Shown here: positions 16,138 through 31,630 of the stretch, one piece after another | How positions within the stretch are numbered: position 1 is the stretch's first letter | Layout: each line of letters begins with the position of its first letter | Assembly: GCA_018241965.1 (NCBI GenBank) | Contig: JAFECS010000012.1 | Coordinates: forward strand, 1-64,000 | Direction: 5' to 3' | Length of the DNA stretch: 64,000 nt | From: Pseudomonadota bacterium | Lineage (GTDB): Bacteria; Pseudomonadota; Gammaproteobacteria; Berkiellales; Berkiellaceae | The notes under the pieces: generated by a model | What the model was told of the DNA's origin: nothing | Databases searched by the model: none | Seen by the model: the letters and a program-made list of their open reading frames with translations, nothing else | Program-made: the position numbers and the translations under genes

Positions 16138-17167
16138 CAAGACACACGCTATTTGGTTACACCGTATTATTGTAGCAAGTCTTTTACTGGCCTTTAGCGT
16201 GATCTTGCTTGGCGCTTATACAAGATTATCCGATGCAGGATTAGGATGCCCGGACTGGCCTGGCTGTTATGGGCAATTAACTGCACCAACAACCTCTCAT
16301 GAAATCCAAACTGCTAATAGTGCTTTCCCAGATATGCCCGTAGATAGCAGCAAAGCAAAAAAAGAGATGACACATCGCTATTTCGCAGAAAGCCTAGGCT
16401 TTTTGATTGTCTGCTTAGCGGCTTTTACTTTTGTTTATCGAAAAAAAATACAACTTCCCTTATGGTTACCCATGCTTTTAGTTGCCCTGGTTATTGCGCA
16501 AGGGATCTTGGGCATGTGGACGGTCACTTTAAAGCTGCTTCCGCTTGTGGTCATGGGGCATCTAATAGGGGGGTTTTGTACGCTTTCTTTATTATGGTTG
16601 TGTTGGTTATTATTAAAATTCCCAACCATGCCTCAATATCCGTTGCCTCGAGCATTATCACGTTTGGCATTTCTTTGTTTAGGCGTCCTCTTTTTTCAAA
16701 TTGCTTTAGGTGGTTGGACAAGCGCAAATTATGCTGCGCTCATTTGCCCTGATTTCCCCTTATGTCAAGGTAAATGGTTACCAGACATGAGCACACGTGC
16801 ATTTAATGTGTTAGGCGCAATAGGCATTGAAGAGCCGCTTGCTTTTATGGATGCCGTGGAAAAAACCACTATTCATGTATCACATCGTTTAGGCGCTTTA
16901 TTCACCTTTTTATTGTGTGGTGTTTTAAGTTTTAAATTATGGCAACAGGGTAGAAAATTACCCAAACAAAGTAGACGCCTTTTTATAGGCTGTAGTCATC
17001 TGTTGGCCGGATTATTATTTATTCAAATAATCCTTGGCATCTCTAATGTCGTCATGCATTTACCGCTGCATGTGGCCGTGACACATAATGGCATTGCCGT
17101 CTTATTATTACTAACTTTGATCACCATTAACTTTATTCTCATTAAATCAAGGAGCGCGCGTGAGTAA
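16130..17167 (+). CDS. ctaA: Heme A synthase CtaA (COX15)
   Basis: Eight-helix membrane enzyme converting heme O to heme A. DAGLGCPDWPGCYGQL, MTHRYFAESLG, WTSANYAALICPDFPLCQG and the VSHRLGALF histidine motif are present; 345 residues. The most likely start is TTG 16130, which overlaps the upstream stop and has an AAGGGC ribosome-binding site about 11 bases ahead. It ends overlapping ctaB. Confidence 0.94.
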   Translation: MDNKTHAIWLHRIIVASLLLAFSVILLGAYTRLSDAGLGCPDWPGCYGQLTAPTTSHEIQTANSAFPDMPVDSSKAKKEMTHRYFAESLGFLIVCLAAFTFVYRKKIQLPLWLPMLLVALVIAQGILGMWTVTLKLLPLVVMGHLIGGFCTLSLLWLCWLLLKFPTMPQYPLPRALSRLAFLCLGVLFFQIALGGWTSANYAALICPDFPLCQGKWLPDMSTRAFNVLGAIGIEEPLAFMDAVEKTTIHVSHRLGALFTFLLCGVLSFKLWQQGRKLPKQSRRLFIGCSHLLAGLLFIQIILGISNVVMHLPLHVAVTHNGIAVLLLLTLITINFILIKSRSARE

Positions 17168-18059
17168 TGTAAGGCTAGTCAGCCCAACAATCTGGCGCGA
17201 TTATTGGGAATTAACTAAGCCCCGTGTAGTGGCGTTGATGCTGCTCACCGCATGGGTAGGCATGCTTTTAGCCTCACCTGCTGACACTTTTCCTTGGCAA
17301 GCCATGATTTTTGGCACCATCGGTATTGCATTTTGTGCCGGCTCTGCAGCGGCCATTAACCACTTGGTAGAGCGCCATATTGATATTCATATGCGCCGCA
17401 CACAGTCTAGGCCTATTGCCGCAGGCAGAGTAGGCCCCTTACAAGGCATGATTTTTTCTTTAATTCTGGGCAGTGCAGGATTAGCCATTTTAATTTATTT
17501 AGTGAATGCATTAACTGCCTGGTTAACGTTGATTAGCTTAGTGGGTTATGCTTTGTTTTATACCCTCTTTCTCAAAAGAGCGACCCCGCAAAATATCGTC
17601 ATTGGTGGTGCTGCTGGCGCTGCCCCGCCTTTACTGGGATGGACAGCGGTGACCGGGCATATTGATCCCTTTGGTTTGTTGTTAGTGCTGATTATCTTCA
17701 CTTGGACACCGCCGCATTTTTGGGCATTAGCGATACATCGTCATGAAGATTATGTTAAAGCAAAATTACCGATGCTACCGGTTACCCATGGCATTCAATT
17801 TACCAAATTATGTATTTTGCTTTATATCGTTTTACTGATTGGGGCAACCATATTTCCTTACCTCACTGGGTTTTGTGGGATCACCTATTTGATTTGCGCT
17901 CTAGGATTGGGCGTTGGATTTTTATATTACGGCTTTTTACTGTATTTATCTGATGATCCCAAAGTGGCAATGAGTACCTTCACTTATTCTATTATCTATC
18001 TCATGGCCTTGTTCGTCGGTTTATTAGTTGATCATTATTTACATTTTTTTCTGAATTAA
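17160..18059 (+). CDS. ctaB: Protoheme IX farnesyltransferase CtaB
   Basis: UbiA-superfamily enzyme farnesylating heme B to heme O. The first Asp-rich-type motif appears as NHLVERHIDIHMRRTQSRP and the second as ALAIHRHEDYVKAKLPMLP; nine hydrophobic segments; 299 residues. It starts at GTG 17160, overlapping ctaA by eight bases, so heme O and heme A synthases are made together. Confidence 0.95.
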   Translation: MSNVRLVSPTIWRDYWELTKPRVVALMLLTAWVGMLLASPADTFPWQAMIFGTIGIAFCAGSAAAINHLVERHIDIHMRRTQSRPIAAGRVGPLQGMIFSLILGSAGLAILIYLVNALTAWLTLISLVGYALFYTLFLKRATPQNIVIGGAAGAAPPLLGWTAVTGHIDPFGLLLVLIIFTWTPPHFWALAIHRHEDYVKAKLPMLPVTHGIQFTKLCILLYIVLLIGATIFPYLTGFCGITYLICALGLGVGFLYYGFLLYLSDDPKVAMSTFTYSIIYLMALFVGLLVDHYLHFFLN

Positions 18060-18072
18060 GTTAAATATCATT

Positions 18073-18729
18073 ATGAAAAAGCACACTTTATTTATTATTC
18101 TCATTATCGGCATAGCAATCGCTATTGGGGTATGGCGCGATAACAATAACTTAGCCTCAACACAAAGTAATGCAAATGTGTTTACTACCCTTCCCTTAAG
18201 TGTGGGCACCGCTTTGCCACAACCGCATAAATTACCTGCTTTTAATTTAATTGATACCGATGGGAAACCTTTTTCAAACGAAGCTTTAAAAGACAGATGG
18301 TCTTTTTTATTCTTTGGTTACAGCCAGTGTCCTGGTGTTTGCCCAGCCACCTTGGGAGTGATGGATCAAATTTCTGCCAAATTAGGCAACCATCATAATG
18401 TGCAGTTTATTTTTGTCTCGATTGATCCAGAAAATGACACGCCACAAGCTTTAAAAAAGTTTTTACAACAAGATAAATTTCAAAAAACACCTTTTGTGGG
18501 CTTAACCGGCGATAAAGATAATGTTGCCATGCTTGCCAAAAAAGTGGGCATTCATGTGGCGGATGAACAAAAATTACCAATTTCTAAAGAGCACATCGAA
18601 CATGGTGGGGCTATTTTATTGGTTAACCCTGAAGGTAAACTGATGGCCATTTTCACCACCACCGATAAACCCAATGCCATCGTGCGCGATTTTAAAGAGA
18701 TTGTGCATTATTATGTTAATGCGGTTTGA
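18073..18729 (+). CDS. SCO1/SenC copper chaperone
   Basis: Membrane-anchored thioredoxin-fold protein that metallates or reduces the CuA site of subunit II. It has an N-terminal helix (about residues 5-20), the copper-binding CPGVCPATLG motif and a distal His in EHIEHGGAILLV; 218 residues. It closes the oxidase cluster and overlaps the 3' end of the convergent 18716-20881 gene by 14 bases. Confidence 0.94.
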   Translation: MKKHTLFIILIIGIAIAIGVWRDNNNLASTQSNANVFTTLPLSVGTALPQPHKLPAFNLIDTDGKPFSNEALKDRWSFLFFGYSQCPGVCPATLGVMDQISAKLGNHHNVQFIFVSIDPENDTPQALKKFLQQDKFQKTPFVGLTGDKDNVAMLAKKVGIHVADEQKLPISKEHIEHGGAILLVNPEGKLMAIFTTTDKPNAIVRDFKEIVHYYVNAV

Positions 18730-20881
18730 GTCGAAGATTTGTCTCTTCATAGTCTGGTTCTTCGAACGCTCTGCAGGATAGTGTCGCACCACTTGCAAAA
18801 GCTCTCAATAAGTTCCATGCACATAGTCCAGCACCTGATTGTGGTTTGCAAAGCAAGCTTGCATCATCACCGTACTCTTGAGTCGTAAGATTATCATGTT
18901 CTGCTTGAGCAGATTCTTTTGCAATTTGCTCATCATCTGCAACTGTGGGCGCAACCTCTGCTAAATTTTGCTGCGGTTGTGATTCGCCAGGCTGTACTAA
19001 ACAAAAATCATTTACTGATAATCTTGGATCAAGTGCCGATGTCTCTTTAAGGAGAGTTTCTTTGCATCGTTGCATTTCTTCTTGTTGCTTAGCAGATTCA
19101 AGCGTAGGAAATGCATCCGTTAGCGCGCCAATATGAATATCACTTGATTTTGAATGAAGTTGGTCAAAAAAGCGATCAATTTCATCACTTTTAGCTGGAA
19201 AATTATTATTATCAGCATACCAGCAAATCAAAGCGGATAACAATTCCATTTTAATCACATGATCCTTTTGATTGTACTGAATTTTGCACATATTTTCTTT
19301 CATAGAAGTGGCCGAAATATTATCGATTTGCTGCCCCCAACTTCCATTTGGTTTTCTTCTAACTCTCTTAATATATTCGAAAGTTTTTTCAAATAACACT
19401 TTACCAAGCCTATTATTTAAAACCAATTTATAAAATGCATCAATATCACTATGCCATAGTTCATTGTTATCATAGGTTTGTTTGCTAGCCGCCACTTGTT
19501 TTGCAACTTCTTTTAATAATGATCGCCTGTAGGTCATCCATGCATAATCTAGCAGCATATATTTTTTAAAAGCCACCCTGGGGTCAAACATATCGCCAAA
19601 TTCCCATAGTTTCTTTTGTGGGATAGACTTGCGATCAAGATCTTCCATCAGTTTTCTAAAAAGAAAATAACCTTCTTCACCAGGTAAGTCCGCAAGCATG
19701 TACCAAAAACATTGTCCATCTACCTCTTTACTTCCTCGATTATATGCTTTTGCACCTCTATTAAAACGCTCACGCCTTTCATATAACCCTTCATTAAAAT
19801 ATTTTTTCGCAACCACTTCATTAAAATAGGCGTAAAATGCGCTTGGTTCCCTTAAGTCTAAGCCCATAATTACTTTATCAAGGTTAAGTTCCTCATCATT
19901 ATTTCTTGTGTTTTTAAGCTTAGCTAAAACTGGACTAAAGGGTTTTGATTTTACAGCATCAATTGAAGATAAACCGATATAGCCATCAATATCTTCTACG
20001 TAACTTTCATATCGTTTTATCTGTTTACTGGCACTTAAAATAAAACGTAAATTTTTCAACAAAATATTTCTTCTTTCGTTACATTCATTCTTTTTACTCT
20101 CATCAAGTTTATTATATTCTTGCTCAGTTAAAACATGAGCAGGACAACAAGAGCTTAGTTGCTGATTATATTCTTTGTAAACCGGGTGCTCACTAAGATT
20201 AGGAGGCAGATCGCCACGCATAGCATAAATCTCACCCAGAAGTTCAGAAGCCGCATTTAATAAATTTACTTGCTTGGTGATTAAATAGTTTTTTACCAAT
20301 GCTAGATCTTGCTTATAAATACTTAATAGTGCTTCCAAATTATCTGCTTCTGGCTTTGAAAGCTTTTTATAATTATTGTGAAGTCTTTCATACATTTGTT
20401 TTGCAAATTCATCTACCTCTGAGTGCAAGTCATTTGTGTGATAGCGTAGGTATAATTTTAATGCTTTTAATTGTTTAATATAAAATCCATGGATTAAAGA
20501 GGCTAAATCTGAACCATATAGCTTTTCCATTTGATGATTGCATTGATATTGATCCTTAGAAAATTCCATCTCAATCTCACCTATTTGTGAGTTTTGAAAT
20601 GGCTTAAGCGCGCCTTGAAGTGTTTCTCCCAAATGAGTCGCTTCCTCAAATCTTTCTTTCAATGAATTGGCTGCCTTTCCCAATGGTTTGGTTATTAAAC
20701 TTTTCGCTTGATTCAGTAAAGGACTGGGATTAAGTTCCTTCTTAATGCTATCAACTATTTGTTCAAATTGATTTAATGACATAGGGGTTCTAACAATTGC
20801 TAAACTAGCATATTCAGGAAAAAGCGCTTTAAGGGTATCAACCTTTGTACGTTGATTAGCACTTGGGCCAACGTTAGACAT
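18716..20881 (-). CDS. Large unknown protein, candidate effector
   Basis: Not recognised. I choose ATG 20881 (MSNVGPSANQ) because AAGAAGGTGT lies just upstream; a longer frame to 20944 lacks such a site. About 721 residues, mostly hydrophilic and helical, with many Lys/Glu/Leu and no signal peptide or clear transmembrane segment. The C-terminal 40 residues are Cys/Ala-rich then acidic (FEEPDYEETNLRLKPH), which could fit the glutamate-rich C-terminal signal of Dot/Icm substrates. No catalytic motif was spotted. It lies at the head of an accessory island and is convergent with the oxidase operon. The effector idea is inference only. Confidence 0.75.
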   Translation of the reverse strand: MSNVGPSANQRTKVDTLKALFPEYASLAIVRTPMSLNQFEQIVDSIKKELNPSPLLNQAKSLITKPLGKAANSLKERFEEATHLGETLQGALKPFQNSQIGEIEMEFSKDQYQCNHQMEKLYGSDLASLIHGFYIKQLKALKLYLRYHTNDLHSEVDEFAKQMYERLHNNYKKLSKPEADNLEALLSIYKQDLALVKNYLITKQVNLLNAASELLGEIYAMRGDLPPNLSEHPVYKEYNQQLSSCCPAHVLTEQEYNKLDESKKNECNERRNILLKNLRFILSASKQIKRYESYVEDIDGYIGLSSIDAVKSKPFSPVLAKLKNTRNNDEELNLDKVIMGLDLREPSAFYAYFNEVVAKKYFNEGLYERRERFNRGAKAYNRGSKEVDGQCFWYMLADLPGEEGYFLFRKLMEDLDRKSIPQKKLWEFGDMFDPRVAFKKYMLLDYAWMTYRRSLLKEVAKQVAASKQTYDNNELWHSDIDAFYKLVLNNRLGKVLFEKTFEYIKRVRRKPNGSWGQQIDNISATSMKENMCKIQYNQKDHVIKMELLSALICWYADNNNFPAKSDEIDRFFDQLHSKSSDIHIGALTDAFPTLESAKQQEEMQRCKETLLKETSALDPRLSVNDFCLVQPGESQPQQNLAEVAPTVADDEQIAKESAQAEHDNLTTQEYGDDASLLCKPQSGAGLCAWNLLRAFASGATLSCRAFEEPDYEETNLRLKPH

Positions 20882-21127
20882 ATACACCTTCTTAAATTTA
20901 GGCAAAATGAAAAATGCTGGCTCTACTGTAACATGTGTGAACACTCACTTTAAATGCTCGGGAGAGGAGTTAAGACAAACTGCTAAAAATGAAGGATAAA
21001 AGTGATGAAATCAGCCAATTCAATTCCGAAGTACAATTTAGAAAGGTGTAATGACAACAAAATAGTAAGCCTTTGTGCAGGGATATTTAAATGATTAGAA
21101 ACACCCACAATAACTTGTAGGTCAAAC

Positions 21128-21310
21128 TTATCCTGTCTTTCTCTTAATCCTATTCCACAACAACCGATGCGCATTGTTGGCGTAAGCCGCAGCAAATGCG
21201 CCTATCACACACGCTAAAATTTTATGTTTATAATCCATACCTGGGAAAACCGATTCGCATAGCACCCAAGTGCTTATCCAGGCGAAGAGGGTGAGTTGAA
21301 GAATGTTCAT
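21128..21310 (-). CDS. Small two-helix membrane protein, probable bacteriocin immunity protein
   Basis: Start placed at ATG 21310 (MNILQLTLFAWIST) because AGGAGATCTT directly precedes it; a longer frame upstream has no comparable site. 60 residues with two hydrophobic segments (about 3-20 and 32-50) and a strongly basic end (RLLWNRIKRKTG). It sits immediately downstream of two double-glycine-leader peptide genes on the same strand. Small basic-tailed membrane proteins in that position are commonly immunity proteins, hence the call; there is no sequence-level family identification. Confidence 0.65.
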   Translation of the reverse strand: MNILQLTLFAWISTWVLCESVFPGMDYKHKILACVIGAFAAAYANNAHRLLWNRIKRKTG

Positions 21311-21344
21311 AAGATCTCCTAAGCTTATCTCTTGTCTCATTGCC

Positions 21345-21366
21345 CCTCTACCGCAAGCGGTAGAGG
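21345..21366. other. Perfect hairpin between peptide 2 and immunity gene
   Basis: CCTCTACCGC (21345-21354) and GCGGTAGAGG (21357-21366) are perfect reverse complements, 10 pairs with a minimal AA spacer. It lies in the 88-base gap between the second peptide gene and the small membrane protein. There is no T-run, so an RNA processing or stability element is likelier than a terminator. Confidence 0.55.
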
Positions 21367-21398
21367 CAATATATGCTCGCTTTGCTGGCATGGAAGAA

Positions 21399-21590
21399 TC
21401 AAGTTTCTTGCCTCAACTCATTCAAATTATTCACCCCTTCTGATATCACCATCCCCGACAACGCAATCCCAACACCTACCGGCCCTCCGGTAACAAATCC
21501 CACAACAATGCCTGAGATCACCGTTCCTAAATTTAAATGAATGCCACCGTTCACTGCTTGGCATTCTGATTTGTTTAAGATTTTAGACAT
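21399..21590 (-). CDS. Double-glycine-leader bacteriocin-like peptide 2
   Basis: A 63-residue precursor with leader MSKILNKSECQAVNGG ending in Gly-Gly, the cleavage signal for peptidase-containing ABC transporters. The predicted 47-residue core starts IHLNLG and contains GIVVGFVTGGPVGVGIALSG, a glycine-rich hydrophobic helix with GxxxG spacings as in pore-forming class II bacteriocins and microcins. A GGAG ribosome-binding site is just upstream. It is 45 bases downstream of peptide 1. No processing transporter is in the window, so export would need genes elsewhere. Confidence 0.78.
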   Translation of the reverse strand: MSKILNKSECQAVNGGIHLNLGTVISGIVVGFVTGGPVGVGIALSGMVISEGVNNLNELRQET

Positions 21591-21635
21591 ATAAACTCCA
21601 TTTTTTGTTGATTAAAATTCTTTTTCAGATCTAAA

Positions 21636-21791
21636 TTACGCTTGAATTCCTGGAAAATAATCGCACAAGGTTGGGATGATAATGGTATAAAATTTCTCAA
21701 AACCAATGGGACAAATTTCTGGCAATTCACTAGTGATTTCCATTGCACCCCCTACTACTTGCTGTGTTTGTTCTAATGTTATTTCTTGCAT
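21636..21791 (-). CDS. Double-glycine-leader bacteriocin-like peptide 1
   Basis: Start at ATG 21791 with an AGGAG site seven bases upstream, giving 51 residues; a longer upstream frame reads through the hairpin array and is not credible. Leader MQEITLEQTQQVVGG closely fits the classical LeuElx-type leader ending in Val-Gly-Gly. The predicted 36-residue core is acidic then hydrophobic (IGFEKFYTIIIPTLC) with two cysteines that could form a disulfide. Together with peptide 2 it may form a two-component bacteriocin. Too short for a homology claim; the leader pattern and context support it. Confidence 0.75.
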   Translation of the reverse strand: MQEITLEQTQQVVGGAMEITSELPEICPIGFEKFYTIIIPTLCDYFPGIQA

Positions 21792-21826
21792 GTTGGCTCC
21801 TGTTGTTTTAGATAAAATCCTTCTGT

Positions 21827-22100
21827 GCGCGAATACGCGCCTCTTCCCTTTACAAGGGAAGATCATTTATTCGCTTCCGCCTTCGCTAAGAAGCTACGGC
21901 GGACAAGTCGCTCATTAAGAGCGATCCTAGCGTTCACGAAGTGAACAAAATATCTTCCCTTGTAAAGGGAAGTTCATTTATTCGCTTCCGCCTTCGCTAA
22001 GAAGCTACGGCGGACAAGTCGCTCATTAAGAGCGATCCTAACGTTCACGAAGTGAACAAAATATCTTCCCTTGTAAAGGGAAGAGGCCCGCCTTGCGGGC
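21827..22100. repeat. Array of perfect DNA hairpins with two tandem 111-bp units
   Basis: Two tandem copies of a unit of about 111 bases (21863-21973 and 21974-22083) are nearly identical, with one clear difference (CCTAGCG/CCTAACG). Each unit contains CCGCC...GGCGG, TCGCTC-attaa-GAGCGA, GTTCAC-gaa-GTGAAC and CTTCCCTT-gta-AAGGGAAG stems. Additional stems flank the pair: GCGCG-aata-CGCGC (21827-21840), CTTCCCTTTACAAGGGAAG (21843-21861) and GCCCGC-ctt-GCGGGC (22086-22100). The array fills the space between the regulator stop and the first peptide gene, and would lie in a common transcript as a chain of hairpins. Confidence 0.8.
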
Positions 22101-22127
22101 ACAGATGGATTTCCTCTCGATCCACTC

Positions 22128-22610
22128 TCAATTCTTCAATAAATTCAAACTCACTAACCCTCTCCCTTTCCTCCTCGGTAAAACCACCCCTTGCACCTGA
22201 TCGCGCCGAAGCTTGTCACACTGAAGTAATACCGAAAGCGGACGAAGCGTAGGCGGATGATATGCGCGCGGCAGCAATACTTTCATCTGCCGCATCTCCT
22301 TTATCATTTCTGGCAAAGGTTGCGCATACCAAATAGGAATATTGCCTTGTAAAAACCCCATGGTTCTTAAACGAAAGAGACATCGATGAATTAAATAAGG
22401 CGGTTTATTCAACGTAGTTGAGATTTGTTCATAAGAAAATGAACAGGTTAATTGATGTTGATTGGCGCATTGGCTAGCAAGCCAGCACCACAAATACTTT
22501 TCATCATCATTTAGCAAAGAATGATTCATGATTTCTTTTAGGTGTACAAACCAGGTGCATGAGCATAGGTTTGCCGCACAAACAACAGGCAAAGCAAGTC
22601 CGTCTAGCAT
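22128..22610 (-). CDS. Putative winged-helix/HTH regulator of the bacteriocin-like locus
   Basis: Start chosen at ATG 22610 with GGAAG six bases upstream; ATG 22529 (MNHSLLNDDEKYLW) is an alternative. About 160 residues. The middle (LNDDEKYLWCWLASQC... SFSYEQISTTLNKPPYLIHRCLFRLRTMGFLQ) reads like a replication-initiator or MarR-like winged helix: a tri-helical region with S-Y-E-Q-I-S-x-x-L-N as turn and an R-x-L-x-x-x-G-F-L wing start. The C-terminal part is basic (RRKGRGLVSLNLLKN). It precedes the peptide genes on the same strand, so a regulatory role is plausible. Family not recognised with certainty. Confidence 0.6.
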   Translation of the reverse strand: MLDGLALPVVCAANLCSCTWFVHLKEIMNHSLLNDDEKYLWCWLASQCANQHQLTCSFSYEQISTTLNKPPYLIHRCLFRLRTMGFLQGNIPIWYAQPLPEMIKEMRQMKVLLPRAYHPPTLRPLSVLLQCDKLRRDQVQGVVLPRRKGRGLVSLNLLKN

Positions 22611-22648
22611 AAAAAACTTCCTAGATTTGGTCAGCAGATAAACCAAAA

Positions 22649-22675
22649 TTAACAAAAAGAGGTACTTTTTGTTAA
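22649..22675. promoter_or_regulatory. Perfect 11-bp inverted repeat upstream of the regulator
   Basis: TTAACAAAAAG (22649-22659) and CTTTTTGTTAA (22665-22675) are perfect reverse complements around a five-base spacer, about 40 bases upstream of the regulator start. The size and position suit an operator for autoregulation. It is AT-rich, so chance similarity in this background cannot be excluded. Confidence 0.45.
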
Positions 22676-22875
22676 AAAATTGTTTAAAAACTGCTAGTTA
22701 GGTCTTTGCAAGACTTGTAGATAACAAAGAATGATTTAAAATGCGCTTAGTCATGGGTGAAAACTCCGAATAAGTTTTTGCTTGTGATTAGTCCCTCAAG
22801 AATGCTAGTTACATTTTTGGGGGACGTTAGCGTGTAGGTTAGCGTATCTAATTCTTGTTGTAAACAATTCTTTGT

Positions 22876-22995
22876 TTAATTTAGCTTAAATAATTCCTTA
22901 CAAAATTTATCTATCCATAATTTTTTTTCATCTTCATCCAGTTCCATTTTATTTAGCATCTCAACCAGTAATTCTCGCGCCCTTTTTGAAATTAT
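22876..22995 (-). pseudogene. Possible gene remnant (short charged frame without start)
   Basis: A leftward frame of about 39 codons bounded by stops reads ISKRARELLVEMLNKMELD followed by a charged segment (DEKKLWIDKFCKELFKLN). It looks protein-like and amphipathic, but has no ATG until its middle (22959) and no clear ribosome-binding site. It may be the decayed C-terminus of a gene, or coincidence. Confidence 0.25.
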
Positions 22996-23005
22996 TTATC
23001 CGTCG

Positions 23006-23647
23006 CTACTGCAAAGGAAATAATAAAGATAAAATCCAATCAAATAATCTTCTTATTTCCGGCCGCAATGATATTATTAAAGCCAATAGCGCAATTAAAA
23101 AAGAATAGTTTGAAATTTTTTTACTATTTTCAGAAGTAATATTAGCCTCAATCGGTAGTAACTTAGTTTCGCACTCATTCACTTTTTGAGTTAAAATTGG
23201 AGATAATAACGTATCAAAATTTAATTCTGTTAACATATTTTCAACTTGTTGGGTATTTTGGGTATTATTGGAGCTTGCCAGCATTACTTGTTCTCTAAGA
23301 GTTACATTCGCAAAATCAATAGCCTCTTTGGCAAGAGAATTCATCAAATAATGGATGTCATCTGAATTAAGCGCTGCTTTGTTATTTTTTACATAAGAAT
23401 TTATTCCAGTAGAAATAATATCATAAATCTCGCCAAGATGTTTAAGAATAAGGTCACGTGATTGAACAGCATGTCTTCCGCTTCCTAACATTCCAACAGC
23501 AGCATTAGCATTGCCCAATCCTCTAATTTTCTCAGGAAGTTCAGCGTTCTTTCCTTGGATAGCATTGCTAATGGAAGAATGTATTTTTTTACTTATTCGT
23601 TTTATTTTAAATTTTAAAATACACACTATTCTCTCCATAATTTTCAT
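23006..23647 (-). CDS. Unknown protein with C-terminal membrane segments
   Basis: Not recognised. About 213 residues: a very basic N-terminus (KFKIKRISKKIHSSIS), a helical polar middle, and two hydrophobic stretches at the C-terminus (YSFLIALLALIISL and LFDWILSLLFPL) that would anchor it like a tail-anchored protein. No signal peptide. M1 or M4 could be the start. It lies in the accessory island between the bacteriocin-like locus and the SNARE-like gene, with AT-rich codon use. A host-membrane-targeted effector is conceivable but unsupported by any motif. Confidence 0.6.
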   Translation of the reverse strand: MKIMERIVCILKFKIKRISKKIHSSISNAIQGKNAELPEKIRGLGNANAAVGMLGSGRHAVQSRDLILKHLGEIYDIISTGINSYVKNNKAALNSDDIHYLMNSLAKEAIDFANVTLREQVMLASSNNTQNTQQVENMLTELNFDTLLSPILTQKVNECETKLLPIEANITSENSKKISNYSFLIALLALIISLRPEIRRLFDWILSLLFPLQ

Positions 23648-23816
23648 CTTTAAATTTATACATGTAGTAAACTATCTAGACTTATTTTTCAATTTTCCTC
23701 TAATCAAATCTGATCAGCTAACAGGCTAGTAACACTGGACTAAGGCTTGAATCATTGACATTCTCTATTTAAATCTCAAAACCTTTAAACACATCCCCAT
23801 CGTTTTAATACTAAAC

Positions 23817-24122
23817 TTAGTCTTTTTTGGTTTGTTTATCGTCTTTTAATTTCAAATAAAGTACGAGTAAACTATCAAGTAGTGCTCCAGCTATTTCGAT
23901 AGGTCGATTATCTTTTTCTATTTGTTTATAAAAAATAGCTTTAACTTGTTTTATATCTGAAAGAAATGGTAGTATTTTATTTAAATTTTCAACTTTATGT
24001 TCATAGCAAGCGACTTCAAACAGTTTTAGAAATAGATCCTGGTTATCTGTATTTTTTGCTTCTTCAAAATACGAATCCCAATCCTCGGCAATGTCATGAA
24101 GTTCATCTGTATTCAACGCCAT
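23817..24122 (-). CDS. Small acidic unknown protein
   Basis: Start taken at ATG 24122 (MALNTDELHDIAEDWDS), preceded by a GTGGGA stretch; a GTG at 24134 would add four residues. 101 residues, acidic and helical at the N-terminus, with an ILPFLSDIKQVKAIFYKQIE centre and a lysine-rich end (LKLKDDKQTKKD). No family recognised and no membrane segment. It is isolated within the accessory island by AT-rich gaps on both sides. Confidence 0.55.
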   Translation of the reverse strand: MALNTDELHDIAEDWDSYFEEAKNTDNQDLFLKLFEVACYEHKVENLNKILPFLSDIKQVKAIFYKQIEKDNRPIEIAGALLDSLLVLYLKLKDDKQTKKD

Positions 24123-24134
24123 TGTGAATCCCAC

Positions 24135-24701
24135 TGCCTAATATTTAATTTATTTTCTCATAGTTATTATTGACCTATGCACAATCAGAAAGTATACGCT
24201 TGTAAATTTCTTACTGTTTTTTTGGTAATATCATTTAATAAAGGAATGTGTTTGATTTTAGGTCGCTTCGAAGGGCAAAGAGAGAAATCTTGCGCCCCTT
24301 CCGGGCTGAGGAATCAATACATAATTTAAAAGGAGTTTCTTATCCCCTCTCCCCTTGCGGGAGAGGGTTAGGGTGAGGGGTATCTTAATCTGTAGCAATT
24401 TTAAGAAACAATATAATTAAGATTATTTTGACACCCCTCATCCCCACCTTCTCCCGCAAGGGGAGAAGGGGTAAGAGCATCGTTATACTTAATATTATTC
24501 AAAGTAAAACCATAATTTTTAAGATATTTTCTTCAAATTATGTGTCGATTCCTCAGGGTTAGGGTGAGGGGTATCTTAAAGATTATTTTGATACCCCTCA
24601 TCCCCGCCTTCTCCCACAAGGGGAGAAGGGGTAAGAGCATCGATGTGCTTAATATGATTCAAATTAAAAACGTTTCTTTTAAGATCTATAATTCTATTAT
24701 C
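24135..24701. other. Intergenic region holding a REP-like repeat block
   Basis: A 567-base gap between the 101-residue gene and the SNARE-like gene. The first 170 bases show nothing I recognise; 24307-24650 is filled by the C/T-rich palindromic repeats described separately. No coding frame is convincing. Confidence 0.6.
24307..24650. repeat. REP-like palindromic repeat block with terminal inverted repeats
   Basis: Contains stems of the CCCCTCTCCCCTTGCGGGAG and CTTCTCCCGCAAGGGGAGAAG type. Two similar copies of a segment of about 110 bases (roughly 24370-24510 and 24555-24672) share AGGGTGAGGGGTATCTTAA, ACCCCTCATCCCC and GGGGTAAGAGCATCG. The first part is bracketed by inverted sequences, TGAGGAATCAATACATAATT (about 24307) and the complement of TGAGGAATCGACACATAATT (about 24536), two mismatches in about 20. 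This is the look of a non-coding mobile repeat (REP/MITE) inserted and partly duplicated. Confidence 0.7.
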
Positions 24702-25826
24702 TCAATGAGATAATCTTGCAGGCCTTAAACCTACCTCAGCTTGTTCGACTTGACTTTGACGCTCACGATACCCTCGTCGATGCTGACCAAAACTCGGCAA
24801 CATGCTTCGTGTTGGTTCAACATGGATCACTGCTTTGTTTTGAGAGGCAAGTGGTTGATAGGTTTTGCGGGGGGAATGCGAAAAGTGTAAACCGCCGCTA
24901 AAAGATTTTATCCAATCGCCCACGCCAACCACTTTTTCCATGATTTTAGTGGCAAATGTACTTAACCCATAGGTTAATGAACCTGCCAAAACACCAAACA
25001 CCACCATCAACGGCCAAGAATAACCCATGATAAAGCCATACCCTGCCCCTAAAGCCATTCCGCCCATGCCAATAAGAATGGAATTTAAGTGATGATTTTG
25101 CGCTTCTTCAAAACGTTCCAGCTTATGGGCATCTTCATTTAACTTTTGAGTGTCTGTTTTAAGATCGGTGGCTTGATCATTTAATTTATCTAATAATTGT
25201 CCTCTGATAATTAATTGTTCCTCAACTTCCACTTGAGTCTTTTTAAAATCAGCAAGATCCGCCTTGGCTTGATCTAACAAAGCAGCATCTTGTGCGGTTA
25301 AAGTCACAGCCTCTTTTTGTTTAAGCTCTTTTTGCTTAGTCTCATCTTTTTTGAGTACTGGTTTTTTTTCCTTCTTTTTGCCCATGATAATCTCCTTCAA
25401 TTTTTTGAAAGAGGAGTTTACTGTAATTTTCCTAGAAGGGGAATGTGACCACTGCCTTAACGAAAAAGTGTTCAGTTTTTGTTGGATCTCTGACGCTACC
25501 ATACCGATCCCATAGCCTAACAATGCACCTATCCCTGTATAGAGCGCTATGCCAGTCGCAGATAAACTTGCAGCAGATCCTGCTAATAACCCTAAAGCCG
25601 CCCCTATCATCAACAATAACAAAGTGATGTTTTGCCACATCAACTTTCTTTTCAAGGTGGTTGCTTGGCGAACAAATTGATGTGATTGCACTTTAAGCGC
25701 AGTGCTCTTATCTTTTAACACTTCAATTTTTTTTCCGCGCAAAATTGCCAAATCGATGTTATGAACCATTATTTTCTTGGTTTCTTCAAGTTGTTTTTTC
25801 ACCATTTCAATTTTGGCTTTGTGCAT
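24702..25826 (-). CDS. Tandem R-SNARE-like (VAMP-like) double membrane-hairpin protein
   Basis: 374 residues in two repeats. Module 1 has an R-SNARE motif at residues 6-58 with zero-layer Arg30. Counting heptads from it, layers +1 to +8 are I34, L37, S41, L44, S48, F51, A55, L58, then K59-R60-K61, W64 and N66; upstream N23, M20 and I19 also match animal VAMP2. A glycine-rich two-helix hairpin (about 66-111) follows. Module 2 repeats this with Arg208 and +1 to +8 = L212, L215, A219, L222, T226, L229, A233, L236, then a second hairpin (about 247-290). Both modules end with a similar tail (HSPSRK, HSPRK). AGGAGAG precedes ATG 25826. The likely role is mimicry of host vesicle-fusion proteins; secretion is inferred. 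Confidence 0.88.
   Translation of the reverse strand: MHKAKIEMVKKQLEETKKIMVHNIDLAILRGKKIEVLKDKSTALKVQSHQFVRQATTLKRKLMWQNITLLLLMIGAALGLLAGSAASLSATGIALYTGIGALLGYGIGMVASEIQQKLNTFSLRQWSHSPSRKITVNSSFKKLKEIIMGKKKEKKPVLKKDETKQKELKQKEAVTLTAQDAALLDQAKADLADFKKTQVEVEEQLIIRGQLLDKLNDQATDLKTDTQKLNEDAHKLERFEEAQNHHLNSILIGMGGMALGAGYGFIMGYSWPLMVVFGVLAGSLTYGLSTFATKIMEKVVGVGDWIKSFSGGLHFSHSPRKTYQPLASQNKAVIHVEPTRSMLPSFGQHRRGYRERQSQVEQAEVGLRPARLSH
25370..25400 (-). promoter_or_regulatory. Internal ribosome-binding site and start within the SNARE-like gene
   Basis: On the minus strand GAAGGAGATTATC is followed by ATG 25385, in frame at residue 148 (MGKKKEKKPVL). As part of the long frame this ribosome-binding site is itself translated (KLKEII). 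It would allow production of a separate 227-residue protein carrying only the second SNARE module. It suggests that the gene arose by in-frame fusion of two tandem genes. Confidence 0.6.
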
Positions 25827-25918
25827 AATCTCTCCTGCGCGTATTAACAGAAATTATTAATACAGCATCAACATTGAGCTGACCTAACAGTAAAGACTAG
25901 ACGATAAAAGATGTTTTA

Positions 25919-27193
25919 TTACATTGGCATTTTTGCCAGTCGCTGAGTTTGTCTAAATAGATGTGAAAGTGATAGGGTATCTAAGGAAGAAAAGTTCAAT
26001 TGTGGAGATTTTACATTGTATTGATGAAATAATTTTTCCAGTTGCTCAAAAACGCCCTGCTTTGCTATTTTCATGTTTTTTGCTTTTAATTTAATTTCTA
26101 TATGCATCGGCGAATGCTGAATCAGTTGAAATTTTTCCACACCGCCTCTGGCACGATTTATTGCTAGCAGAAATTCATCTGAGTATATTGTCTTTAAGGT
26201 TGTACTATTACCATACTTTTGAAAATAGAGCATATCTTCACATCTGCCAATTATCTTTTCAATGGCCAGGTGAGCACTGCCACAGGAACATGGCGTAGGT
26301 GATATTTTTAAAATGTCATTCATGCGATAGCGAACAAGCGGCTGCAATCTTCGATGTAAAGAGGTGATCACCGGAATGAATTTATCCTTTTTTTCGTCTA
26401 TCCATTCTTTTTCAATATAATATTGATCTTCATTTAAATGCAATGTACCCATTTCACAAGTGCTACCTAAAAACCCTTCCGCACATTGATATAACTGAAA
26501 CACATTTTGTTTAAACGCCGTGGAAATAAGGTTTTCTTCAACAGGGGTTAAGACTTCTTGGGTGGCAACTATTTTTTTAGGCTTTAGCATTATACTATTG
26601 TTATTTTGATAATGTGCCAGCAAACATAAGGTTTGTACCGGTGCCACAATAATATCTGGCGAATTCTGGTTTAATTGATCAAGCCATATTTGTGTATTTG
26701 CTTGTAAATCATAAAATTGCCACTTAAAGCAGGCGGAGTTAACTGTGTGCAAGTATGGCGTTTTAGATAAATAAAATACCGCCACCTTAACAGGACATAG
26801 CCCAGTTACCGGATGTAATTTACTTAAAATGCTGGCTAACTCTTGTTGTCTTTCCGCCTCTGAAAATAAATAAATGCCGTTGGGTCCAGAGGTACCCAGA
26901 GAGTAATTTGCCGATTTGTTGGTACTCAATTGAAGATGGGTTGCCTCTTGATAAGTAATGTTCGCGCTATTCATCTTCTCAAAGTTTTCTTGCATGATAA
27001 CTTTGTCGATAATTGGCAATTGATGAAATTGTCTAACACCCTGCTTTTGATAAAATGGCACCTGTTTATGAATAAATGCCAATAAGTGTTTTATTTTAAC
27101 CTGCTGGAAATAATGACGAAAAAAAGTTGGAAAAAACCAGCTTTTGATTCGTGCTAATTGGTGCCATATCCAAAAGCGCAAAAGTTGCGACAT
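25919..27193 (-). CDS. PaaK/CapK-like adenylate-forming protein
   Basis: 424 residues resembling phenylacetate-CoA ligase / coenzyme F390 synthetase-like enzymes: an N-terminal HKQVPFYQK region, a weak P-loop-like NYSLGTSGPNGIYLF, and a C-terminal VRYRMNDILKI ... PCSCGSAHLAIEKIIGR block matching the R-x-x-D-x-x-x and CxCG features of the family. The P-loop lacks the usual SSGTTGxP form and Lys, so activity may be altered. Substrate unknown. It sits alone between the SNARE-like gene and znuB; its gene context gives no pathway. Confidence 0.7.
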   Translation of the reverse strand: MSQLLRFWIWHQLARIKSWFFPTFFRHYFQQVKIKHLLAFIHKQVPFYQKQGVRQFHQLPIIDKVIMQENFEKMNSANITYQEATHLQLSTNKSANYSLGTSGPNGIYLFSEAERQQELASILSKLHPVTGLCPVKVAVFYLSKTPYLHTVNSACFKWQFYDLQANTQIWLDQLNQNSPDIIVAPVQTLCLLAHYQNNNSIMLKPKKIVATQEVLTPVEENLISTAFKQNVFQLYQCAEGFLGSTCEMGTLHLNEDQYYIEKEWIDEKKDKFIPVITSLHRRLQPLVRYRMNDILKISPTPCSCGSAHLAIEKIIGRCEDMLYFQKYGNSTTLKTIYSDEFLLAINRARGGVEKFQLIQHSPMHIEIKLKAKNMKIAKQGVFEQLEKLFHQYNVKSPQLNFSSLDTLSLSHLFRQTQRLAKMPM

Positions 27194-27329: not shown

Positions 27330-28145
27330 TTAGCCGGATTTCTTAATTGAGGAGATCGCCGTGGTTAATACCAGCATCAGGGCTGAGATCACTACTATCG
27401 CTGGCCCACAGGGTAAGTCCCAGAAATGGGAAGCCAACAATCCTAAAAACACCGAAAGTGCTCCTAAACAACTCCCTAGAAACGCCATGGCTTCTGGGCT
27501 GCGAGCTAAAGGTCTTGCCGAGGCGACGGGGATTATCAACAATGCTGTAATCAGCAAAACCCCAACCAACTTGATAGCAATAGCAATCACAACCGCCAAT
27601 AAGATCATATACATAAGCTCAACACGCTCTATGGCAACCCCTTCTACCTTGGCTAAATCAGCATCTACTGTCAGTAGTAATAAGCGCTGCCAAAGACGCA
27701 ACATCCCTAGCAATATTAAAAAGCCACCGCCATAAATCCACAGCAGATCATGTAAAGAAATGGTTAAAATATCGCCATATAAAAAACCAAGGACATCCAC
27801 ACGTAGATCTTGCATTAAAGATAAAACTAATAATCCCAACGCTAAGGTCGTGTGTGACAATAACCCCAATATGGTATCACTGGCCACCTTCAATTTGGTT
27901 TGCAGTTTAAGCAACAAACAAGCCACACTTATCGCAATTAAACATACCCCAAAGACAATGTTGATATGCAGGGCAAAAGCTAAGGTAATGCCCAATAAAC
28001 CAGAATGCGATAACGTATCACCAAAATAGGCTAAGCGTCGCCATACCATAAAAGCACCAAGCGGGCCTGCAAGCACAGCAACACCAATGCCGCCCAATAA
28101 GGGGACTAATAAATACCCTAAATTAAAGGCAAACAGTTCATTCAT
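27330..28145 (-). CDS. znuB: Zinc ABC transporter permease ZnuB
   Basis: Integral membrane component of high-affinity zinc import, about eight hydrophobic helices, ABC-3 family; motifs include GPLGAFMVWRRLAYFGDTLSHSGLLG and ALLIIPVASARPLARSPE near the end. 271 residues. Its start overlaps the znuC stop by eight bases. A reading frame on the opposite strand (27361-27735) is a shadow. Confidence 0.95.
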   Translation of the reverse strand: MNELFAFNLGYLLVPLLGGIGVAVLAGPLGAFMVWRRLAYFGDTLSHSGLLGITLAFALHINIVFGVCLIAISVACLLLKLQTKLKVASDTILGLLSHTTLALGLLVLSLMQDLRVDVLGFLYGDILTISLHDLLWIYGGGFLILLGMLRLWQRLLLLTVDADLAKVEGVAIERVELMYMILLAVVIAIAIKLVGVLLITALLIIPVASARPLARSPEAMAFLGSCLGALSVFLGLLASHFWDLPCGPAIVVISALMLVLTTAISSIKKSG

Positions 28146-28908
28146 CGTCTTTGGCCTTTTTGTTTTTTAGCACTTTACCGTGCACCCCATGATGATGATC
28201 ATGATGATGGGTGTAAAATGCGAGCCCTTGTGCGGCTTTACCAAAAAGCTCTGCAAAAGCAGGATCTCGACTTACCTGCTCAGGATGGCCGGAACAACAA
28301 ACATGTTGATTAAGACATACCACTGTATCAGTACGCGCCATCACAATGTTCAGATCGTGTGAAACCAGCAAAATACCACAATGATAAAGATCTCGTATTT
28401 TTGCTATCAAGTCATAAAGCTCACCTTGCCCCAGTAAATCAACCCCTTGGGCAGGCTCATCCAACACTAAAAATTGTGGTCGACGCAATAAGGCTCTGGC
28501 CAACAGTACCCGCTGCAATTCCCCACCTGATATTGCCTCAAGCGGGCTATGTTGGACGTGTGATACTCCTACTTCCTCAAGCATCTTAGCTAATTCTTGT
28601 TCTGACCATGTTTTATTGAGCTGTAAAAAACGCTGTACTGTCAGTGGAAAAATGGGGCTGAGATGGATCTTCTGTGGCATGTAGCCAATCGTTAAGCCTT
28701 CTTTGCGCGTAATGCGCCCTTGCGATGGTTTGAGCAAGCCTACCATGAGTTTGACCAAGGTTGTTTTACCGGCACCATTGGGCCCAATTACCGAGACAAT
28801 TTTGCCTGGCATAATGGTTAAATTCACCCCTTGCAAAAAGGTACGCTTCGCGTCCCCATAAGAAAGGTCTTGAACTTGAACTAAGGGCTCTGTAGTGGTT
28901 GGGCTCAT
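28138..28908 (-). CDS. znuC: Zinc ABC transporter ATPase ZnuC
   Basis: ABC ATPase with Walker A GPNGAGKTT, signature ISGGELQRV, Walker B FLVLDEPAQG and the switch His in LLVSHDLN. I take ATG 28908 (MSPTTTEPL) as start; a GTG at 28947 would add 13 residues that do not look conserved. The C-terminus is histidine-rich (THHHDHHHGVHG), a metal-sensing or storage tail seen in some ZnuC proteins. Coupled to znuB and divergent from znuA. Confidence 0.95.
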   Translation of the reverse strand: MSPTTTEPLVQVQDLSYGDAKRTFLQGVNLTIMPGKIVSVIGPNGAGKTTLVKLMVGLLKPSQGRITRKEGLTIGYMPQKIHLSPIFPLTVQRFLQLNKTWSEQELAKMLEEVGVSHVQHSPLEAISGGELQRVLLARALLRRPQFLVLDEPAQGVDLLGQGELYDLIAKIRDLYHCGILLVSHDLNIVMARTDTVVCLNQHVCCSGHPEQVSRDPAFAELFGKAAQGLAFYTHHHDHHHGVHGKVLKNKKAKDDE

Positions 28909-28975
28909 AACTTTTATAGTAGCATCAGATATGATAGATTCTAGCACTAACTGAATTGAACACCTATGGGATCCT

Positions 28976-29884
28976 ATGCGAAATCGCCTTGTTCTGTTTG
29001 CTTTGCTGCTGTTTTACCTGGGAAATGCTATTGGCGCACCAAAAGTGGTGGTGACGATAAAGCCCCTACACGGATTAGTCAGTGCAATCATGCAAGGTGT
29101 GGCTGAGCCTGCTTTATTATTGCCAGACAATGCCTCCCCCCATACTTTTGCCTTAAAACCTTCGAACTGGCAGCAATTACAAAAAGCCACCTTAATTATG
29201 TGGGTTGGCCCCTCCTTAGAATTGTTTATGCAAGCGCCATTAAAAGAAATCAAACCGCAATATGGCGTAATTACCTTGATGGAGATCCCAACACTTACCT
29301 TGTTGCCTCAACGCAATAGCAGACAATGGCAACATGCCCACGAGGAAGATCATGAGCACGCTTCGCATATGATTGATCCCCATTTTTGGCTAGATACAGA
29401 TAATGCTGTAAAAGTGATCGATTATGTAGAAAATTATTTAAGTAAAATTGATAACGAGAATGCAATTGTTTATAAAAAAAATGCAAGTACACTACGCGAT
29501 GACATTATCAAATTAAAATCTACGCTTAACCAAAAACTACAACCCGTGCACGATAAACCTTTTTTAGTGTATCACGATGGGTATCAATATTTTGAAAAAG
29601 AATTTAATTTAAATGCTGTAGGTACCTTTATCCTCAATCCGCATGTTCCACAAAGCGCCAAGGGATTATATGAAGCTAAAACACTCATTCATGATAAAGG
29701 GGTAAAATGTGTGTTTAGAGAAACAGAATTTTATGACACAAATATCGAGCGCTTACTGAGTGAAGCGGGTGTGAAGTTTACAGAATTGGATCCTTTAGGA
29801 GCCAGAGTTAAAGCTGGCCCCGGTGCTTACCAAGAAATTCTATTGAACTTAGCGCAAAATATGCAAAGTTGTTTAGCCTCTTAA
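28976..29884 (+). CDS. znuA: Zinc ABC transporter periplasmic binding protein ZnuA
   Basis: Cluster A-I solute-binding protein delivering Zn2+ to ZnuBC. A signal peptide (RLVLFALLLFYLGNAIGAP), first ligand His in KPLHGLVSAIM, a short His-rich loop (HAHEEDHEHASHM) and ligands in DPHFWLD and VYHDGYQYFE are visible; 302 residues. The intergenic region with znuC is short; Zur control is expected for this system but I did not find a convincing Zur box. Confidence 0.95.
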   Translation: MRNRLVLFALLLFYLGNAIGAPKVVVTIKPLHGLVSAIMQGVAEPALLLPDNASPHTFALKPSNWQQLQKATLIMWVGPSLELFMQAPLKEIKPQYGVITLMEIPTLTLLPQRNSRQWQHAHEEDHEHASHMIDPHFWLDTDNAVKVIDYVENYLSKIDNENAIVYKKNASTLRDDIIKLKSTLNQKLQPVHDKPFLVYHDGYQYFEKEFNLNAVGTFILNPHVPQSAKGLYEAKTLIHDKGVKCVFRETEFYDTNIERLLSEAGVKFTELDPLGARVKAGPGAYQEILLNLAQNMQSCLAS

Positions 29885-30292: not shown

Positions 30293-31630
30293 TCATTTTT
30301 GTCTTTTAGCGGCAGATTGCTTGCCCTTACTGTGTCGTTTCCCATCTTCTGGTTGCCATCTTTCATCAACACGTAAAGCATTGATTTCACGCTGGCTAAT
30401 ACGTTGTCGCTTCGCCTTGTGTCTGTCTGTGTCGAGCTGACGTTTATGCAACACTGTGGGCGCATTATCCTCAACGGGTGGATTTCCAGGTTGATTGTCA
30501 ATGGGGCGTTGAGAAGACAGTATTTTTCTAACCCATTCTTCGCCAAATTTATCTTTTAATGCTGCAGGTAGTACTGTGAGTTGATTGTTATAGCACCGTA
30601 GCCATACCGTCACTTGCAGATTGCCGATGGACTCCGGTAGCGCTGTGAGTTGATTGTCATAGCACCACAGCTTATGCAAGGCTTGCAGCTTGCCGATGGA
30701 TTCCGGCAACGCTGTGAGTTGATTGTCATAGCACCACAGATTTTGCAACGCTTGCACCTTACCAATCGACTCCGGCAGCGCTGTGAGTTGATTGTTATCA
30801 CACCGTAGGTGTATCAACATTTGCAGATTACCGATGGACTCTGGCAGCGTTGTGAGTTGATTATTATTGCACCCCAGCCCTTGCAACACTTGCAGATTGC
30901 CGATGGACTCCGGTAGCGTTGTGAGTTGATTGTTATCGCAGAACAGTACTTGCAACGCTTGCAGCTTGCCGATGGACTCCGGCAGCGTTGTGAGTTGATT
31001 GTTTTCGCAAAACAGCGCTAGCAACGCTTGAAGATTGTTGCCTATATTGCTTGGCAAAGTTTGCAAAAAATTATCTTGCAAGCGCAAAGATTGTAAATCT
31101 CGCCAAAATGCCGCATGCGCTGGGTTATCTAGCAATGCCTTTGGAAATCTGGTTATTCCTTTGTGTTCTAAACGAAGATCATTCTCGCCTGCGTTTTTTG
31201 TTTGCTCAATCCTATTTGTAATAATGGCGCTATTGATTGCATCTAGCTCGGCGCTAATCGCGACAACATCACTTAAGTTAAGCGCTTGCTCAAGATATAT
31301 ATTGTTAATATGCGGACAATGCGCAAAGATATTATACCTGTATTTTTCATGCAAATAGGAAATTTCTGCAAGTTGCCTTGTTCTGACTTTTTCTAGGCCT
31401 GCAATAAAAGCAGCCTTGATGGTTTGACCTTGTTTTGGCTTAACGCTAATGGTTTCATCTATAGTATGCAGCTGGTTCAAAAAAGGCTGCCAGAGTACAT
31501 CAAGCTTATCTAATGTTTTATTCATTAATTTGCAAGTGCTTGCAAGCGCCTGAATATCACTTAGTGATAGATAGGGAGCCAAACCGGCCCATACACCTGC
31601 ATCTTGTGTGTCCAGAGTGAGATGTGTCAT
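30293..31630 (-). CDS. F-box / leucine-rich-repeat protein with basic nuclear-type tail
   Basis: 445 residues. Residues about 14-50 (GLAPYLSLSDIQALASTCKL...) fit an F-box, the eukaryotic SKP1-binding helix set. Residues 178-358 hold eight 23-residue leucine-rich repeats of the form LQxLxxLxCxxNQLTxLPESIGx, encoded by near-identical 69-base DNA repeats. The end carries two basic clusters (LHKRQLDTDRHKAKRQR and GKRHSKGKQSAAKRQK) resembling nuclear localisation signals. GGAGGAAATC precedes ATG 31630. F-box effectors of Legionella recruit the host SCF ubiquitin ligase; by analogy this is a probable secreted effector whose LRRs pick the target. Secretion is not shown. Confidence 0.85.
   Translation of the reverse strand: MTHLTLDTQDAGVWAGLAPYLSLSDIQALASTCKLMNKTLDKLDVLWQPFLNQLHTIDETISVKPKQGQTIKAAFIAGLEKVRTRQLAEISYLHEKYRYNIFAHCPHINNIYLEQALNLSDVVAISAELDAINSAIITNRIEQTKNAGENDLRLEHKGITRFPKALLDNPAHAAFWRDLQSLRLQDNFLQTLPSNIGNNLQALLALFCENNQLTTLPESIGKLQALQVLFCDNNQLTTLPESIGNLQVLQGLGCNNNQLTTLPESIGNLQMLIHLRCDNNQLTALPESIGKVQALQNLWCYDNQLTALPESIGKLQALHKLWCYDNQLTALPESIGNLQVTVWLRCYNNQLTVLPAALKDKFGEEWVRKILSSQRPIDNQPGNPPVEDNAPTVLHKRQLDTDRHKAKRQRISQREINALRVDERWQPEDGKRHSKGKQSAAKRQK

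Follow-up and report, generated by a model that had tools for sequence, protein, structure and literature searches.

The window analysed here, a stretch of 64,000 nucleotides from a genome of the same family as 'Candidatus Berkiella cookevillensis', encodes a bacterial protein with two R-SNARE modules in tandem. The gene (24702..25826) lies on the minus strand, as do all of its features described below. It encodes 374 amino acids in an open reading frame that begins with ATG, 5 nt downstream of a Shine-Dalgarno core AGGAG (25832..25836). By sequence comparison the whole protein is a true R-SNARE homologue with both motifs in R-SNARE register, and module 1 matches a canonical R-SNARE motif. The interpretation that we favor, at about even confidence, is that the Dot/Icm system injects this tandem R-SNARE into host cells, and that its module 1, by zipping with Q-SNAREs found there, would help the bacterial vacuole to fuse with membranes of the host.

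The complete protein was compared with the Pfam family Synaptobrevin (PF00957), for which the curated cut-off is 26.4 bits. It matches over two stretches with 97.5 bits (E = 4.1e-28), and the original prediction, which proposed R-SNARE motifs and named a synaptobrevin match no better than that of generic coiled coils as the result that would speak against them, is clearly upheld. Could the match simply reflect a coiled coil in which an R-SNARE pattern arose by chance? Coiled-coil proteins do reach 21-28 bits with PF00957. Two such matches, L013 in genome G010 (21 bits; GrpE by reading) and L023 in G151 (27.9 bits; a chemotaxis receptor by reading), were dropped as R-SNAREs. Module 2 alone (residues 148-374) falls in the same range, scoring 24.2 bits, which is under the cut-off, with 26.3 bits in the genome search and 26.4 bits together with its neighbours. 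Module 1 alone (residues 1-147) scores 78.1 bits, and none of 14 named control genomes has a PF00957 match above the cut-off. The score of module 1 by itself refutes the explanation for that module, and for the protein we consider it very improbable indeed. Since module 2 alone lies below the cut-off and within the range of the false matches, it is classed as an R-SNARE by its alignment to module 1 rather than by Pfam. The two modules align over 140 amino acids with 28% identity (44.3 bits, E = 9e-11 in a two-sequence blastp comparison).

Searching the PDB with the whole protein by phmmer gave VAMP2 as the best match (4.6e-8), followed by VAMP4, VAMP8, VAMP7, Nyv1 and others, and none of the 25 chains listed bears the name of a Q-SNARE. 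A bacteria-only profile, A2, was built from module 1 and four one-module relatives with zero eukaryotic rows, and used to search the PDB with E values up to 10. It found VAMP2 (1.2e-14), VAMP4 (2.6e-14), VAMP8, VAMP7, Nyv1, Ykt6 and Sec22. The top 24 of its 49 hits are R-SNAREs, running from VAMP2 at 1.2e-14 down to synaptobrevin-2 at 1.2e-7, one of these chains being named merely 'rv-SNARE/sc-t', and no chain named syntaxin, SNAP-25 or other Q-SNARE occurs among the 49. A Pfam scan of the whole protein gave no match to PF05739, to longin or to IncA.

The heptad register was examined using layer numbers in which Arg56 of VAMP2 is, as we take it, the zero layer. The module 1 motif, layers −7 to +8, corresponds to residues 6-58 (25653..25811). 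With Arg30 (25737..25739) set on VAMP2 Arg56, layers −7 to −1 are I, V, L, T, M, N, A and layers +1 to +8 are I, L, S, L, S, F, A, L, the downstream residues being exactly those originally named, and all 16 layers fit. The second motif (layers −7 to +8, residues 184-236; 25119..25277) has the same register about Arg208 (25203..25205), as the original prediction held, and reads L, A, L, F, Q, V, L-R-L, L, A, L, T, L, A, L; both the layer table and the alignment of the two modules bear this out. Over the window protein and the four other proteins with two modules, the layers of the proposed register are hydrophobic at a mean of 84% for module 1 and 87% for module 2. Shifting the register by 1 to 3 lowers this to 15-64%, so that the proposed register alone is mainly hydrophobic. 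Both zero-layer arginines are invariant in the five proteins (10/10 modules).

Module 2 carries a polar residue at layer −3, which is Gln or Glu in 5/5 two-module proteins, and Lys at layer −2 in 3/5. Since layer −2 is Asn in VAMP2 itself, the real departures of module 2 are just layer −3 and the lysine at layer −2 in those three proteins.

The original prediction had also listed residues shared with VAMP2 outside the layers. On alignment with 3hd7, M20, N23, D25, K59-R60-K61, W64 and N66 are indeed shared; M20 and N23, however, occupy layers −3 and −2 and are not off-layer. The juxtamembrane linker of an R-SNARE transmits the force of zippering to the membrane. In module 1 the KRK..W.N stretch leads from layer +8 to the membrane with zero insertion relative to VAMP2.

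What follows each motif? Hydropathy reveals two adjoining hydrophobic stretches behind both motifs of the window protein. The first pair, rich in glycine, forms putative hairpin 1 (residues 67-111; 25494..25628), and the second putative hairpin 2 (residues 249-292; 24951..25082). AlphaFold2, run with nine sequences, predicts helices at residues 2-85, 90-119, 178-267 and 271-313, with a disordered linker and tail. The linker (residues 120-177; 25296..25469) is rich in lysine, and has pLDDT <50 at 123-177. Confidence was low overall (mean pLDDT 61.3, pTM 0.27), with blocks of pLDDT 74-90 for residues 1-120 and 56-76 for 181-290. The model thus predicts that the SNARE motif and the first membrane helix form one unbroken helix, and that the hairpin has both its ends on one side of the membrane. 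The anchor does not take the form of a single C-terminal transmembrane segment; by this prediction each motif is followed instead by two hydrophobic helices and a turn, with a soluble tail behind. A membrane hairpin behind each motif, as first proposed, is therefore supported by both hydropathy and structure prediction.

The two modules differ in which part is conserved. Compared with four one-module relatives, the SNARE motif of module 1 has a mean identity of 39.9% (20 pairs) and that of module 2 25.4% (20 pairs). The reverse is found for the hairpins, where mean identity among the five modules 2 is 68.2% and among the five modules 1 only 40.8%; against the one-module relatives the hairpins are about equal (30.4% and 28.7% mean identity). 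Judged by these identities, conservation is split, falling on the fusion helix in module 1 and on the hairpin in module 2, and we infer that module 1 may serve to zip and module 2 to anchor. Because its SNARE helix has diverged, with a polar layer −3, while its hairpin is strongly constrained, module 2 would act mainly as a membrane anchor or a self-association unit that holds module 1. The earlier suggestion of two equal motifs bridging two Q-SNARE bundles does not fit a module 2 in which the motif is the more diverged and the hairpin the most conserved part.

A protein search for homologues, as originally proposed, returned four other two-module proteins, 40-51% identical overall, and 19 one-module relatives (P0006-P0024). 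P0006 is CC99x_000965 of 'Candidatus Berkiella cookevillensis', named Synaptobrevin in UniRef. Among the 14 genomes of the order, all of which belong to that one family, PF00957 matched 8 at 1e-3, including one false match, and 7 above the cut-off, and both modules of a two-module model were matched in the window genome only. In a sample of the class, 6/369 genomes matched at 1e-5, again with one false. Scans of named genome contigs and of viral contigs gave zero relatives, and a search of the 14 genomes of the order for Q-SNAREs (PF05739) matched none, the controls likewise giving no match. The zero-layer arginine is present in 21/23 one-module relatives (19/19 of P0006-P0024, together with L007 and L008). 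The two that lack it are above the Pfam cut-off and have Gln (L011:1495-2073, genome G008) or Asn (L012:1333-2034, genome G003).

The gene occupies a locus common to relatives. In the window it is bordered on its upstream side by a gene for an F390 synthetase-related adenylate-forming enzyme (25919..27193, minus strand; TIGR02304, 306 bits) and then by a conserved flank of zinc-uptake genes (27330..29884), comprising an ABC-3 permease, an ABC ATPase and a ZnuA-like protein; the first and last of these were assigned by Pfam and the ATPase by reading. Zinc-uptake genes are near the SNARE gene in G001, G002, G003 and G005 also, and the F390-related gene sits between them and the SNARE gene in G001, G002 and G005 (shorter in G005). 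On the other side, homologues of the window genes at 16130-18729 come next in G001, G003 and G005, after some 6 kb in G005. The protein at the shared locus in G003 is the one with Asn at the zero layer. G004, of the same genus and 81% complete, has an empty site (L064:5190-5215), where on a single contig hardly any space is left between the F390-related gene and its neighbour, and a SNARE gene was found nowhere else in the genome either. G006 and G008 carry the SNARE gene at other places, with zero neighbours in common within the stretches fetched. At this locus, then, the gene is doubled in the line of the window, while one relative has an altered form and another lacks it.

The neighbourhood of zinc uptake and a CoA-ligase-like enzyme resembles housekeeping rather than effector genes, and would suit a membrane coiled-coil protein of R-SNARE descent that acts inside the bacterium with no host target. 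A match that is specific to R-SNARE profiles and the retention of arginine in 21/23 one-module relatives and in every module of the two-module proteins argue the other way, and we give such an intrabacterial role little probability.

How did the two-module form arise? Module 1 alone as a protein query gave 0/82 candidates at E 0.01, and few eukaryotic motifs could for this reason be included in the trees. One tree contained two eukaryotic motifs and L022. A second, of 56 columns, had six eukaryotic motifs and 10 of the 19 rows P0006-P0024, with L011, L012, L058, L061, L062 and L063 left out. The third, of 121 columns, was made without P0010, L011, L012, L021, L022 and two eukaryotic rows, and is to be read with a warning of long-branch effects. 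Module 2 forms one clade in all three, with support of 100/99 in the two-eukaryote and 121-column trees and 100/98 in the 56-column tree. Module 1 is one clade (96/86) in the 121-column tree, where the long rows are left out, and is not in the two-eukaryote and 56-column trees (25% and 30% of bootstrap trees). It groups with L007, a one-module protein of the same genus, at 95/96 in the 56-column and 89/83 in the 121-column tree. The best trees place module 2 beside one-module proteins of the G006 type, with 83/64 (two-eukaryote, L022 being one of these proteins), 95/91 (56-column) and 81/73 (121-column). The AU test rejects neither a tree that unites the two modules (p = 0.229, 121-column tree) nor a single origin of all bacterial R-SNAREs (p = 0.214, 56-column tree). 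The simplest reading of these trees would be one origin of the two-module form before the five proteins split, and module 2 is read as a probably repurposed copy with a diverged SNARE helix.

Among known systems close to this protein is the synaptobrevin/VAMP family, of which VAMP2 and VAMP4 each have 18/55 motif residues identical to module 1, which has the same 16-layer motif, the zero-layer Arg and a gapless juxtamembrane stretch of K-R-K and W/N. In contrast to synaptobrevin/VAMP, with its single C-terminal segment, there are here two modules per chain, predicted hairpin anchors, long tails and a bacterial gene. The longin R-SNAREs (Ykt6, VAMP7 and Sec22) have an N-terminal longin domain, whereas the motif of the window protein starts at residue 6.

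Neveu et al. reportedly described in 2020 SNARE genes in archaea and Legionellales, thought to be of eukaryotic origin. Synaptobrevin motifs are listed for Legionella hackeliae (lha0498) and L. fallonii (lfa3165) in PMC4256840, and the statement in the original prediction that bacterial SNARE-like proteins are mostly Q-type or only loosely similar had overlooked these. Like the present protein, they and the members of family f42 have a gammaproteobacterial R-SNARE motif, that of f42 being above the Pfam cut-off. In f42, PF00957 scores above cut-off in 24/140 genomes, 22 of them with one match. Each of the 12 one-motif loci considered (L050-L061, from the 22 one-match genomes) combines an N-terminal domain of ~115-150 amino acids with a CaaX-like C-terminal end and has no hairpin, unlike the window protein. 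The N-terminal domain is longin-like in position, and gave no Pfam longin match in the proteins tested. Two further f42 proteins, L062:1112-1945 (G454) and L063:1301-2056 (G471), have the N-terminal domain, two back-to-back synaptobrevin motifs with Lys and Glu at the zero positions (by eye), and a CaaX-like end (CNLI). If this is right, the R-SNARE motif would have been doubled twice.

Other bacterial proteins that resemble SNAREs differ in type and order. In Inc proteins a bilobed hydrophobic domain precedes the SNARE-like motifs. That order is not matched here, where the motif comes first and the hairpin after. Chlamydia IncA, as reported (PMC2265411), similarly combines two SNARE-like motifs and a bilobed hydrophobic domain in one bacterial membrane protein; its C-terminal motif is described there as Q-type, whereas the present protein has two R-type motifs, with homology at the level of Pfam for module 1. 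The Legionella proteins YlfA/LegC7, YlfB/LegC2, LegC3 and LseA are reported as cases of SNARE mimicry by Dot/Icm effectors (PMC7542358, PMC4961411), as we propose for the present protein, and in the same accounts YlfB has two putative membrane helices close together, resembling the hairpin. In the descriptions given there these proteins are Q-type, the Ylf pair having an N-terminal hydrophobic region and LseA, a Qc-SNARE, a CaaX end, in contrast to the R-type motif and the anchor that follows it here.

In the mechanism that we favor, the Dot/Icm system would deliver the tandem R-SNARE into the host cell, module 1 would zip with Qa-, Qb- and Qc-SNAREs of the host, and the bacterial vacuole would thereby be led to fuse with membranes of the host, with module 2 perhaps also made alone from Met148. 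We infer the secretion, the location on the host side, the pairing with host Q-SNAREs and the promotion rather than block of fusion. A check of the same genome for a secretion system, as suggested at the outset, covered two Dot/Icm components and found both, a DotA-type match of 307 bits (cut-off 100) and DotB with 580 bits (cut-off 463). Of 27 dot/icm genes, 17 and 18 are reported to be present in the two named Berkiella genomes (PMC9803151).

Counting against a fusogen is the hairpin anchor, in place of the single C-terminal segment of synaptobrevin. So do the low confidence of the structural model, a module 2 under the Pfam cut-off, the empty site in G004, the equality of the two hairpins when compared with the one-module relatives, the zero-layer substitutions of L011 and L012, the two trees in which module 1 is not one clade, and L010, a relative from G006 for which hydropathy shows no hydrophobic window above threshold. 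The protein may alternatively be an inhibitor. Such an R-SNARE would be delivered to the vacuole membrane and tie host Q-SNAREs into non-fusing complexes, thereby keeping lysosomes from fusing with the vacuole. In favor of this, the predicted anchor is a hairpin rather than a single spanning segment, and the diverged helix of module 2, polar at layer −3 in all five proteins, would suit a partial capping helix. There is precedent, in that Chlamydia IncA, with its two SNARE-like motifs, and Legionella IcmG/DotF are reported to inhibit SNARE fusion in liposomes (PMC2756591). Module 1, however, has every layer in place and a juxtamembrane linker free of insertions, as in an R-SNARE that drives fusion, and a decoy needs less. 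We regard inhibition as a tentative alternative, appreciably less probable than promoted fusion.

Might the gene also give two products, the full two-module form and module 2 alone? This would be compatible with the favored mechanism. A sequence AAGGAG (25392..25397) lies 6 nt upstream of Met148 (25383..25385), a candidate internal start. In a survey of 55 hand-chosen open reading frames of the window, a 6-nt Shine-Dalgarno core was found at 3/421 internal in-frame ATGs and at 2/55 listed starts. Met148, Lys150 and Lys151 are invariant in 5/5 two-module proteins, inside a linker that is otherwise variable. Against this, 32/55 listed starts lack a core of at least 4, making the signal weak evidence in this genome; among the five two-module genes the Shine-Dalgarno sequence was judged from the window DNA alone; and the conserved methionine may have been left over from a fusion of two genes. 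From the sequence around Met148 a second product is plausible, and we hold the two-product reading as possible, at confidence clearly below even.

A more elaborate scheme can be constructed, in which the Berkiellaceae would have kept an R-SNARE lineage of their own for long enough to evolve a two-headed fusogen, with divided labour (module 1 zipping, module 2 anchoring or self-associating) and two sizes from one gene, which would fuse the vacuole with membranes of the ER or nuclear envelope and so aid nuclear entry, the tandem having arisen again, CaaX-anchored, in f42. Reported observations suggest that 'Ca. B. cookevillensis' enters host nuclei with its vacuole still intact, or else forms deep invaginations in them, and the route is described as unexplained (PMC6507137). 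The same authors read lamin staining as indicating no fusion-reforming event (PMC6507137), which counts against a role at the nuclear envelope. The scheme as a whole we consider improbable. Nevertheless, as 'Ca. B. cookevillensis' carries a one-module relative in its genome and its nuclear entry route is unexplained (PMC6507137), these genes provide a direct lead on that route.

R-SNAREs are taken as a hallmark of eukaryotes. Here there is a bacterial gene family in which the anchor has been changed, the motif doubled and the central arginine altered in two relatives, and these are natural variants for probing what an R-SNARE requires. In the open-access literature on R-SNARE or synaptobrevin in Legionellales, gammaproteobacteria, Legionella or Berkiella, no title or abstract among the matches listed concerns this protein, and a term search of the main text of the Berkiella comparative genome paper (PMC9803151) found mention of neither SNAREs nor synaptobrevin. 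For this order, R-SNARE domains were already on record in the form of domain lists; the tandem, hairpin-anchored form is new as far as we have seen.

Several other features of the window were observed. Just downstream of the SNARE gene, at 24330-24640, there are near-identical GC-rich REP-like repeats in both orientations (ccccttctcccc...gggagaagg; by reading). Between the SNARE gene and the genes at 16130-18729 are four open reading frames (18716-24134) with no Pfam family above the cut-off, and one at 23006-23647 has a hydrophobic tail at its end like that of a tail-anchored protein (by reading). Beyond the zinc-uptake genes, 32608-34296 encodes a protein of the Tannase/feruloyl esterase family (PF07519, 275 bits), and 30293-31630 a leucine-rich repeat protein (Pfam LRR_14, 94.7 bits) that is possibly a further host-directed protein.
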